NCBI GenBank assembly: GCA_902555065.1
Contig: CACDQQ010000003.1
Coordinates: 1-64,000, forward strand
Reading direction: 5' to 3'
Length of the DNA: 64,000 nucleotides
From: an uncultured Pelagibacteraceae bacterium
GTDB taxonomy: Bacteria > Pseudomonadota > Alphaproteobacteria > Pelagibacterales > Pelagibacteraceae
The translations under genes were made by a program, and so were the position numbers. Under the pieces are notes generated by a model, which worked only from the letters and a program-made list of their open reading frames with translations, did no database searches and had not been told where the DNA came from. Below, one piece after another: positions 4,647 through 62,199 of the stretch (its first letter is position 1; the number at the start of each line of letters is the position of its first letter).

Positions 4647-4967
4647 TTAATTTGAAGGCTTGAAGTAGCTTGATCCACGCTTACCTGAAAAAATTTCATT
4701 AATTAGAGGGTGTTTAATAGGCTCTTCAGAGTCATCAAATAATAGATTTTGCTCAGACACATAAGCCTCGTAAGTAATTTCGTCATTCTCTGCTAGTAAA
4801 TGATAAAATGGCTGATCCTTTCTAGGTCTCACGTTTTTTGGAATCGATTGATACCACTCTTCTGAGTTATTAAATTCAAAGTCAACATCGTAAATCACAC
4901 CTCTAAAATCGAAGTGTCTATGTTTTACAATGTCTCCAATTGAAAATTTAGCTTTTTGAGTGCTCAT
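4647..4967 (-). CDS. hspQ: Heat shock protein HspQ (YccV-like)
   Basis: A 106-aa soluble protein matching the HspQ / hemimethylated-DNA-binding YccV domain: KFSIGDIVKHRHFDFRGV at the N-terminus, then EWYQSIP and DQPFYHLL, and the family's YEAYVSEQNL element. In enterobacteria HspQ is a heat-induced specificity factor and substrate of Lon protease. It stands alone on the minus strand, 168 bp upstream of ccmC. A candidate RpoH-type promoter lies at 4976-5003 with only 8 nt between its -10 element and the ATG, so the mRNA may be leaderless. Confidence 0.9.
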   Translation of the reverse strand: MSTQKAKFSIGDIVKHRHFDFRGVIYDVDFEFNNSEEWYQSIPKNVRPRKDQPFYHLLAENDEITYEAYVSEQNLLFDDSEEPIKHPLINEIFSGKRGSSYFKPSN

Positions 4968-4975
4968 GATATTAA

Positions 4976-5003
4976 ATATGGATATTTGATGATAAAAATC
5001 AAT
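4976..5003 (-). promoter_or_regulatory. Candidate RpoH-type heat-shock promoter of hspQ
   Basis: Read on the minus strand: ATTGAT (-35, 4998-5003), a 14-nt spacer, then ATCCATAT (-10, 4976-4983). The RpoH consensus recalled from proteobacteria is CTTGAA - about 14 nt - CCCCATNT; the match is 4 of 6 and 6 of 8. Spacing and -10 are the same as at hslV in this window. Inference from sequence only. Confidence 0.5.
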
Positions 5004-5932: not shown

Positions 5933-6691
5933 TTATCTTCTTTGACCAAACAATCTTAAAAGCATTATAAATAAATTTATAAAATCCAAGTATAATGTTA
6001 AAGCTCCCATGACAGCTTTCTTCCCAATTACTTCGCCTGAATCTGAAGCTGCGTACATGTTCTTAATTTTTTGTGTATCGTATGCAGTTAATCCAACAAA
6101 TATAAGAACTCCAATGATTGAGATAGCAAAGTACATCATTGAGGATTTTAAGAAAATATTTACTAAAGATGCGATTATAATACCGATCAAACCCATCATT
6201 AAGAATGATCCAAATTTTGTTAGGTCTCTTTTAGTTGTGTAACCATATATACTCATAGCTCCAAATGTTGCTGAAGATATGAAAAATACTCTCGTCACAC
6301 TAAGTCCTGTGTAAACTAATAAAATTGATGATAGTGATAAGCCCATCAAGGCTGCAAAAATCCAAAAAGTAGTTTGAGCTTTTGAAGAACTCATTTTATT
6401 TATCCCAAAACTCATATAAAAAACAATTCCGAGAGGAGCTAACATAACCACCCATTTTAATCCAGATAGATAAATTGCATTTCCGAACTCAGTTAAAGCA
6501 ACTATTGATCCACTTGCATCTGTAACTACTGACATTTTAAAAGATAGCAATGCAATGATCCCCGTTAGCAAAACTCCGGTTGCCATGTAGTTGTAAACTT
6601 TAAGCATGTAGGCTCTAAGGCCTTCATCCATTACAACAGCTTTTTTTGCTGTCGTTGATCTATTTAAAATATTGTCTCTATTGAATTCCAT
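5933..6691 (-). CDS. Bax inhibitor-1/YccA family membrane protein
   Basis: A 252-aa protein with a 25-residue soluble N-terminus and seven predicted membrane helices. It shows the BI-1 family's first-helix pattern (YMLKVYNYMATGVLLTGIIA) and the C-terminal FVGLTAYDTQKIK element with the Asp-Thr pair before the last helix. Members act as membrane ion/pH-responsive channels or FtsH-associated modulators (YccA). The exact function here is not determinable. It is a monocistronic gene on the minus strand, divergent from the aldo/keto reductase. Confidence 0.9.
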   Translation of the reverse strand: MEFNRDNILNRSTTAKKAVVMDEGLRAYMLKVYNYMATGVLLTGIIALLSFKMSVVTDASGSIVALTEFGNAIYLSGLKWVVMLAPLGIVFYMSFGINKMSSSKAQTTFWIFAALMGLSLSSILLVYTGLSVTRVFFISSATFGAMSIYGYTTKRDLTKFGSFLMMGLIGIIIASLVNIFLKSSMMYFAISIIGVLIFVGLTAYDTQKIKNMYAASDSGEVIGKKAVMGALTLYLDFINLFIMLLRLFGQRR

Positions 6692-6763
6692 AATTTAATA
6701 TATAGTAATAAATTTTAAATTTTTCAAGCAGTCAAAATATAGGTAACAAATACTTAATGTTTA

Positions 6764-44213: not shown

Positions 44214-44288
44214 TGGAGCGGGCAATGGGACTTGAACCCACGACCTTCTCGTTGGCAACGAGACGCTCTACCACTGAGCTATGCCCGC
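44214..44288 (-). tRNA. tRNA-Gly(GCC)
   Basis: On the minus strand a full cloverleaf can be drawn: acceptor GCGGGCA/TGCCCGC, D arm AGCTCAGTGGTAGAGC, anticodon stem CTCGT/ACGAG around loop TGCCA with anticodon GCC, and T arm with GTTCAAGTC. The discriminator is T and the 3' CCA is encoded (44214-44216). It lies 16 bp upstream of phhB on the same strand. Outside it, 44289-44443 shows only AT-rich sequence and a short GC patch. Confidence 0.97.
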
Positions 44289-60281: not shown

Positions 60282-60309
60282 CTTGAACTATTTAAATTCA
60301 TATCCATCT
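60282..60309 (+). promoter_or_regulatory. Candidate RpoH-type heat-shock promoter of hslVU
   Basis: CTTGAA (60282-60287), 14-nt spacer, ATCCATCT (60302-60309). Compared with the recalled RpoH consensus CTTGAA - about 14 - CCCCATNT, the -35 matches 6 of 6 and the -10 6 of 8. The -10 ends 7 nt before the ATG, so transcripts would be leaderless or nearly so. Confidence 0.6.
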
Positions 60310-60316
60310 ATAGTTC

Positions 60317-60832
60317 ATGACAACAATTGTACTTGTAAGAAAAAATAACGACGTAGTTGTGGCCAGTGACGGTCAAGTTAGCATGGGTAATACTGTAATT
60401 AAGAAAACTGCTAACAAGGTTCGTAAAATTGAGAAAAGAAATGTGATCGCAGGTTTTGCTGGATCAACAGCTGATGCTTTAACATTGTTTGAAAGATTAG
60501 AATCAAAGCTTGAAAAGCATGCGGGTAATCTAACAAGAGCTGCTGTAGAATTAGCAAAAGATTGGCGTACAGATAAATATTTAAGAAGATTAGAGGCCTT
60601 AATGGCAATAGGTGATAAAGAAAAAAGTTTTATAATTTCTGGAACAGGTGATGTTCTTGAACCTGAGGGAGATGTTATTGGGATTGGTTCAGGTGGAAAT
60701 TATGCTTTCGCAGCTGCAAAGGTATTAATGGATACTGATATGTCTGCAGAAGAAATTGCTAAAAAGTCTATTAAAGTTGCTTCTGATATTTGTGTATTTA
60801 CTAACGACAATTTGAGTATGGAGAAAATATAA
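60317..60832 (+). CDS. hslV: HslV protease subunit
   Basis: 171 aa. The mature N-terminus after Met removal is Thr2 ([10 protein letters not shown]), the proteasome-type nucleophile; GGD-like [30 protein letters not shown] and [12 protein letters not shown] follow. It forms the double hexamer capped by HslU. Stop overlaps the hslU start by one base (TAATG). Heat-shock-type promoter just upstream. Confidence 0.97.
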
Positions 60833-62199
60833 TGGAAAAATCGAATGTTACATCGTTTCCAAAAGGCAAAGTTGCAAAAGAGAAAACTACAATTGCAAAT
60901 TCATTATCACCAAGAGAAATTGTTTCAGAATTAGACAGGTTTGTTGTTGGACAAAATAAAGCTAAAAGAGCTGTTGCTATCGCTTTAAGAAATAGGTGGA
61001 GAAGACAAGCATTAGAAGATGATATGAAAGATGAAGTTCTTCCAAAGAATATTTTAATGATTGGGCCAACTGGTGTTGGTAAAACTGAAATCTCAAGAAG
61101 ACTCTCAAAATTAGCAGAAGCACCGTTTGTAAAAGTTGAAGCTACAAGATTTACTGAAGTAGGTTACGTGGGACGTGATGTAGAGCAAATTGTAAGAGAT
61201 TTATTAGAAATTGCAATCGCAATGGAGAAAGTAAAGAAAAGAAAAGAAGTTCATGCTCAAGCACAAAAATTAGCTGAAGACAGAGTTTTAGATGCACTGG
61301 TTGGTAATAAAGCAAGTGTTGCAACAAGAGAAAGTTTTAGAAAAAGACTGAGAGATGGAGATCTAGATGATAATGAAATTGAAATAGCTGTTAGTGAGTC
61401 TAATCAAATGCCATCTTTTGAAATACCTGGAATGCCTGGCGCAAATGTTGGAATGATTAATATTTCTGACATGCTCGGAAAATCTATGGGGCAAAAGCCA
61501 AAAAAAAAGAAAATGTCAGTAAAAGAGTCTCACGAAATTTTAATTAATGAAGAGTCTGATAAACTTATTGAACAAGATAAAATTATTAAATCTGCAAAAG
61601 ATTCAACTGAAAATAATGGAATAGTTTTCTTGGATGAAATAGATAAAATTTCTGCAAGAACAGATAGAGTTGGTGGTGATGTCTCAAGAGAAGGTGTTCA
61701 AAGAGATTTATTACCATTAATTGAAGGAACAACGGTTAGCACTAAATATGGACCTGTTAAAACAGATCATATTCTATTTATTGCTTCTGGTGCATTTCAA
61801 TTGGCAAAACCATCAGATCTTTTACCTGAGCTGCAAGGTAGACTTCCTATAAGAGTTGAGCTTGATGCACTAAATAGTGAGGATTTTATAAGAATATTAA
61901 AAGAACCCGACAACAGTTTGATAAAGCAGTACAAGGCTCTTTTAAAAACAGAGAATGTTGATTTAGAATTTACAGAAGATGGGATCAATACAATCGCTCA
62001 TATAGCAAGTGAAGTTAATTCATCAGTAGAGAATATAGGAGCAAGAAGATTGCATACAATCATTGAAAGAGTGTTAGATGAAATTAGTTTTACAGCAACA
62101 GATAGAGCTGGAGAAAAAATTACTGTAGATGGTAAATATATAAAAGATAATATTGGTGAGTTAGTAAAAGATACTGATCTTTCTAAGTTTATTTTATAG
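60832..62199 (+). CDS. hslU: HslU unfoldase ATPase
   Basis: 455 aa AAA+ protein: [33 protein letters not shown] opening (quoted here only by its [20 protein letters not shown] core), Walker [15 protein letters not shown], a charged I domain (about 110-250), Walker [12 protein letters not shown], sensor [21 protein letters not shown] in part, and the C-terminal LSKFIL tail that docks in HslV. An SD-like GGAGAA lies 9 nt before the start. The 3' end overlaps the convergent Smr gene by 11 bp. Confidence 0.97.

Follow-up and report, generated by a model that had tools for sequence, protein, structure and literature searches.

Predicted RpoH-type promoters next to the start codons of hspQ, hslVU and further stress genes in Pelagibacteraceae, with probably leaderless or nearly leaderless messages

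The genes hslVU, hspQ, lon, grpE, groESL, and dnaK are classic sigma32 targets in E. coli, where messages of the sigma32 regulon carry leaders. In the window, i.e., the whole 64,000-nt stretch of contig CACDQQ010000003.1 from an uncultured Pelagibacteraceae bacterium that was analyzed here, a two-block element ends 8 nt before the start codon of hspQ and a similar one ends 7 nt before that of hslV. This raises the question of whether both elements are promoters of the heat-shock sigma factor RpoH and, if so, whether they leave room for any leader at all.

The hspQ and hslVU upstream regions

The two loci comprise the following features.

4976..5003, minus strand: predicted RpoH-type promoter of hspQ, with -35 ATTGAT at 5003-4998, a spacer of 14 nt, and -10 ATCCATAT at 4983-4976
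4968..4975, minus strand: gap of 8 nt between the -10 and the hspQ ATG (4967-4965)
4647..4967, minus strand: hspQ coding sequence, 106 aa (TIGR02097 HspQ, 121.6 bits, cut-off 38.05)
60282..60309, plus strand: predicted RpoH-type promoter of hslVU, with -35 CTTGAA at 60282-60287, a spacer of 14 nt, and -10 ATCCATCT at 60302-60309
60310..60316, plus strand: gap of 7 nt between the -10 and the hslV ATG (60317)
60317..60832, plus strand: hslV coding sequence, 171 aa (TIGR03692, 267.3 bits)
60832..62199, plus strand: hslU coding sequence, directly 3' of hslV (TIGR00390, 607.6 bits)

Since the coding sequences of hslV and hslU overlap, the two genes probably form one operon. Transcription is predicted to start at the ATG or within 1-2 nt of it for hspQ, and at the A of the ATG for hslV. 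At gathering scores, Rfam matches the window only at a tRNA gene (44217-44288, minus strand).

A sequence-only reading of this DNA had described ATTGAT before hspQ and CTTGAA before hslV, each followed by 14 nt and ATCCAT(A/C)T, at 8 and 7 nt from the ATG, respectively, and had judged such a shared layout hard to obtain by chance. The sequence confirms the former, and the latter holds as well. Given the base composition found upstream of genes, and for a pattern chosen after it had been seen, TTGA-N17/18-CCATNT at any of four permitted distances from a start has a probability of approximately 1.6e-5 per start, which corresponds to about 0.001 expected matches among 60 starts; moreover, the hslV box is retained in the relatives examined. 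HslV matches were obtained in 57 of 61 genomes, 30 of the 57 being examined by locus and 11 of the sister family by coordinates. In all 30 same-genus loci, hslV is preceded by CTTGA-N17-CCA(T/C)NT with a gap of exactly 7 nt to the ATG (ATG being the start in every one of these loci, with starts chosen automatically). The same layout with the exact 7-nt gap was found in all of the best 80 of 578 HslV matches, which belong to Pelagibacteraceae or Pelagibacterales (SAR11) and contain 70 distinct upstream 60-mers. Across these 70 sequences CTTGAA and TCCAT(C/T)TA are invariant, whereas the gap bases from -6 to -1 are variable; 67 of the 70 have a pyrimidine (C or T) at base -1.

The hspQ box was found in each of the 25 same-genus loci with a readable upstream region (25 of 30 loci, one being cut at a contig end and four belonging to the sister family). 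Its -10 reads CCATAT (15 loci), CCATAC (7), or ACATAT (3), and its distance to the start codon is 7 (6 loci), 8 (17), 9 (1), or 10 nt (1). The start codon of hspQ is ATG in 17 and GTG in 8 of the 25 loci. The -35 block ATTGAT is weak; it departs from CTTGAA and matches the RpoH consensus in part.

Further genes with the layout, and heat-shock genes outside it

The same arrangement was observed upstream of lon, grpE, and regA, for all of which the start is ATG at every locus (starts chosen automatically). The lon gene is preceded by ATTGCA-N16-CCATAT in 11/11 same-genus loci, with a gap of 7 (9 loci), 8 (1), or 9 nt (1); these are 11 of 17 rows, the 6 sister-family rows, two of which showed the wrong ORF, having been kept apart. 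The genome that carries the window (1.2 Mb, assembly 82% complete) has no lon match over the cut-off. For grpE, CT(A/G)G-N18-CCATAT was found in 14/14 same-genus loci (14 of 22 rows, the other 8 being from the sister family), with a gap of 8 (12 loci), 7 (1), or 2 nt (1), the last value resulting from the automatic choice of start, as an earlier in-frame ATG is present. Both lon ATTGCA and grpE CT(A/G)G are partial matches to the -35 CTTGAA, and the lon -35 is weak.

The regA product is the redox response regulator ActR/PrrA/RegA (NF033791, 312.6 bits, cut-off 250), and to our knowledge regA lies outside the E. coli sigma32 regulon. The layout stands near its start codon in 25 of 26 same-genus loci (L417-L442; 26 of 30 loci, leaving out one cut locus and three of the sister family), with gaps of 7 (17 loci), 8 (3), 9 (1), and 10 nt (4). 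The regA -10 is CCATAT in 23/26 and CTATAT in 2/26 loci; the occurrence of both at the same spot would join the two -10 forms. Taken together, the spread of the gap is small: none for hslV, 7-10 nt for hspQ, 7-9 nt for lon, 7-8 nt for grpE (13/14 loci), and 7-10 nt for regA (25/26 loci).

Shine-Dalgarno words are nearly absent before hslV (0/30 same-genus loci), hspQ (0/25), lon (0/11), and grpE (1/14), and were found before regA in 6/26 loci. Over a larger sample of 206 genes they occur in 28, vs. 14 expected by shuffling.

Two chaperone genes deviate from the layout. Both groES and dnaK have a related two-block promoter, with a -10 that is mostly (C/T)TATATGA (CTATATGA/TTATATGA type), and its distance to the start varies from 24 to 37 nt for groES (28 of 30 loci) and from 14 to 23 nt for dnaK (29 of 30 loci; the loci left out in both cases are of the sister family). 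A Shine-Dalgarno word is present in 28/28 groES loci but in only 14/29 of dnaK, which has a leader. A pyrimidine-purine step, as commonly seen at start sites, places a purine 8 nt past the -10 hexamer in 24/28 groES loci, and the same register would put the hslV transcription start at the A of the ATG. This register is not unique, as base 10 also qualifies in 18/28 groES loci and the dnaK step falls at base 8 in 12/29 and at base 12 in 11/29 loci, which counts against an exact start assignment.

In 23/23 SAR11 genomes searched, 10 of which are at least 90% complete, ClpB gave no match over the family cut-off. A candidate match in the genome carrying the window was rejected, as it falls inside hslU. 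The sequence-only reading had expected the motif to be enriched at dnaK, groES, clpB, and lon, and had suggested an RpoH regulon with leaderless messages. The first expectation came true for lon (11/11), whereas dnaK and groES show the variant -10 at a longer distance and no ClpB scored over the cut-off in the genomes searched. The second is strongly supported by the comparison of genomes and extends to lon, grpE, and regA, but because dnaK and groES are off the layout and no ClpB passed the cut-off, it applies to a sub-regulon, not to the whole regulon.

Specificity of the layout in genome-wide scans

The loose pattern TTGA-N16-18-CCATNT gave 87 matches in the genome carrying the window vs. 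49 in the backward control, with no match at the dnaK or groES promoters. The motif alone is therefore unspecific; the specificity lies in the combination of the motif with its distance to the start codon. Layout scans of 12 same-genus genomes yielded 55 matches (31 with a 7-nt and 24 with an 8-nt gap), the backward controls 14 (6 and 8, respectively). Judged by translation, 42 of the 55 open hslV (11), lon (8), grpE (11), hspQ (6), or regA (6), one of the lon matches being assigned by its sequence without its locus having been fetched; the other 13 open ORFs of at most 26 aa. As the patterns used in these scans derive from the other four genes, hslV, hspQ, lon, and grpE, regA is a new find.

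A two-species test was based on about a third of the genome carrying the window and of a closed relative (G012), between which 282 reciprocal best pairs were obtained, 216 of them with a usable start pair and 206 after the removal of overlaps. CCATN(T/C) or CCA(T/C)NT was located 4-12 nt from the start in both species for 3 of the 206 pairs, namely the heat-shock genes hslV, hspQ, and grpE, vs. 0-2 genes for nine-nt windows further upstream. When the full layout was sought with both -10 forms and all aligned starts (280 of the 282 pairs), 4 pairs matched in both species, and 6 in the genome carrying the window, whereas five mononucleotide shuffles gave 0 matches. These 4 pairs are hspQ, grpE, a BI-1/YccA-family gene, and glutaredoxin 3; hslV, the fifth member, was missed because the -10 of the relative reads CCACCT. 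Thus the motif is not equally frequent at random genes, in agreement with the sequence-only reading, provided that its distance to the start is taken into account (3/206, 4/280, and 42/55, as opposed to 87 vs. 49 for the loose motif anywhere). The motif is conserved, its distance to the start codon is kept, and among the genes scanned it is restricted to those named here.

A leave-one-out matrix scan of the 206 genes ranked hslV second and grpE third, and also raised the BI-1/YccA-family gene and glutaredoxin 3; in the relative, however, another site at a distance of 87 nt scored best for hslV. Neither hspQ, whose rows had not entered the matrix, which limits the use of the scan, nor dnaK is among the 22 rows listed. 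For TATAAT-like boxes, a weak excess was observed 8-12 nt from starts when the species were counted singly. A general trend toward leaderless messages of sigma70 genes was considered and rejected, as the two-species test gave 8/206 over ten distances, vs. an average of approximately 6 over all distances.

The BI-1/YccA-family gene and glutaredoxin 3 are looser members of the set.

6700..6728, minus strand: predicted RpoH-type promoter of the BI-1/YccA-family gene, CTTGAA-N17-CTATAT, 8 nt from the ATG at 6691
5933..6691, minus strand: gene of a BI-1/YccA-family membrane protein, 252 aa (PF01027 Bax1-I, 214 bits)
G000:C1:99708, plus strand, same genome but outside the window: candidate promoter of glutaredoxin 3 (TIGR02181), CTAGTA-N16-CTATAT, 8 nt from the ATG

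The BI-1/YccA-family gene, with a box of its own, is situated near hspQ. In the closed relative it is preceded by CTTGAA-N17-TTATAT with a gap of 7 nt. Among 20 stretches taken from relatives the gene is present in 19, of which 11 have a gap of 7-10 nt, whereas the other 8 have a spacer shorter by 3 nt and a gap of 10-13 nt; the gap is thus less constant among relatives than in other members of the set. Glutaredoxin 3, which has CTAGTA-N16-TTATCT and a 7-nt gap in the closed relative, is a possible further member.

Sigma factor, message form, and competing explanations

RpoH (TIGR02392) scores over the cut-off in the genome carrying the window (G000:C1:177086-177892) and in 18 of 23 genomes searched, the other 5 having fragments or only RpoD-like matches. 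According to PMC13198564, SAR11 bacteria have only sigma70 and sigma32, along with four two-component systems. For S. meliloti RpoH1, PMC4843759, citing Barnett 2012, gives the consensus CTTGAA-N15-16-CCTATAT. The hslV promoter, CTTGAA-N16-CCATYT, agrees with it in the -35 block, the 15-16-nt spacer, and the C/T-rich beginning of the -10, and the genes concerned are likewise heat-shock genes, groES being a close match. Unlike these S. meliloti promoters, the SAR11 set has mostly CCATNT as the -10, located 7-10 nt from the start.

In the sister family of the same order, hslV is preceded by CTTGAA-N16-CCACAT at 9-10 nt from the ATG in 11/11 loci examined and hspQ by CTTGAA-N16-CTTATT at 9-10 nt in 4/4, whereas inspection by eye found no such layout in 4 lon, 8 grpE, and 3 regA rows. 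The HslV proteins of the 11 sister-family loci (L447-L457) have eleven residues before the TTI motif, as compared with the initiator methionine alone in the family of the window (L001-L030); despite these eleven residues the hslV promoter stays near the start in the sister family.

On this evidence, the hspQ and hslV sites are probably RpoH (sigma32-type) promoters of a conserved sub-regulon whose messages are leaderless or nearly so. The RpoH holoenzyme would recognize the promoters of hslVU, hspQ, lon, grpE, and regA, the BI-1/YccA-family gene and glutaredoxin 3 being looser members, and heat would be expected to induce these genes. As the -10 mostly ends 7-8 nt before the start codon, RNA polymerase would initiate at the A of the ATG or 1-2 bases earlier, an exact position that we infer from the sequences. 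The resulting messages would have neither a 5' leader nor a Shine-Dalgarno word, and the ribosome would bind the 5'-terminal AUG by the leaderless route. Gaps of 8-10 nt would fit a 1-3-nt leader equally well. The groES and dnaK messages would come from the same kind of promoter and keep their leaders, with a Shine-Dalgarno word in groES.

It seems unlikely that the leaders are merely short (approximately 3-7 nt), the promoters still being those of RpoH and their nearness to the start reflecting intergenic regions that genome streamlining has compressed, so that leaderlessness would have no function in itself. Gaps of 8-10 nt in hspQ, regA, and the sister family are compatible with such leaders, as are the BI-1 spacing, which varies between genomes, and the slightly raised number of TATAAT-like boxes at 8-12 nt before starts when species are taken singly. 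However, the hslV gap is constant in all of the best 80 of 578 loci although most of its bases vary, while the groES and dnaK distances drift; sigma70 boxes adjoining starts show no clear excess in the two-species test (8/206, average approximately 6); and the close gap of hslV is seen in both families although the propeptide is absent in one.

The hspQ box can also be read as a weak sigma70 (RpoD) promoter, e.g., TTGATT-N16-CATATT, and the -35 blocks of hspQ and lon are devoid of the leading C. Nevertheless, the -10 CC is kept in 30/30 hslV, 11/11 lon, 14/14 grpE, 22/25 hspQ, and 23/26 regA loci, and only stress genes, of all those scanned, have the layout, which makes sigma70 sites unrelated to heat shock quite improbable. 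Least probable of all, to a degree that we find hardly credible, is an element at the start codon that regulates through protein or RNA (an operator or a translational signal), combined with an unseen promoter upstream: strong conservation right beside the start codon would suit it, but the two-block spacing and the sequence are those of RpoH promoters, groES and dnaK have similar blocks further upstream, and the tRNA gene is the sole Rfam match of the window at gathering scores.

Leaderless messages of the predicted kind have been mapped in other Alphaproteobacteria, namely 171 in S. meliloti (PMC3616915), 375 in Caulobacter (PMC4117421), and 192 with exact starts in Bradyrhizobium (PMC4842269). 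As in those messages, where it was mapped, transcription is predicted here to start at the start codon, so that there is no room for a Shine-Dalgarno sequence. The promoter search for leaderless genes in S. meliloti allowed 5-12 nt between promoter end and start (PMC3616915), a range that contains the gaps listed above for hslV, hspQ, lon, grpE (13/14 loci), and regA (25/26 loci); those of the BI-1/YccA-family gene span 7-13 nt. Leaderless starts in S. meliloti are all AUG (PMC3616915), and in E. coli the efficiency of GUG on leaderless messages is much lower, Caulobacter showing a similar tendency (PMC9031893); the GTG starts of hspQ in 8/25 loci are therefore a point against a leaderless hspQ message. 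In the accessible portion of these papers, no single sigma factor accounts for the alphaproteobacterial leaderless sets, and PMC4842269 states that specific promoters have not been described for such genes, whereas the predicted SAR11 set is a coherent stress sub-regulon. It would constitute a sigma-factor-specific leaderless group, and no title or abstract describing a leaderless RpoH or heat-shock set, in SAR11 or Pelagibacter or elsewhere, was found in the literature searched, with subscription papers mostly outside it. The predicted 5' ends at the start codon make the gene set sequence-defined and directly testable, and regA would form a link between heat shock and redox control in these bacteria.

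A more tentative proposal, which we rate as somewhat less than an even chance, is that the SAR11 heat-shock regulon is split by message form, the proteolysis and redox-control genes (hslVU, lon, hspQ, grpE, and regA) being leaderless and favorably translated by non-canonical initiation in stress, and groES and dnaK being leader-dependent. If true, stress control in a cell that has two sigma factors would gain a translational layer, and the heat-shock sigma factor would govern the global redox regulator RegA. That leaderlessness serves stress-specific translation is speculation. Leaderless translation increases in E. coli under oxidative stress (review PMC9031893), and Caulobacter translates leaderless messages as well as others in normal growth, so that leaderlessness need not be a stress device (PMC4117421).

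A second RpoH-like sigma factor was found in none of the 15 same-genus genomes searched, and below the family cut-off it is present in the 8 genomes searched of the sister family (G037, G038, G039, G045, G048, G050, G054, and G056).
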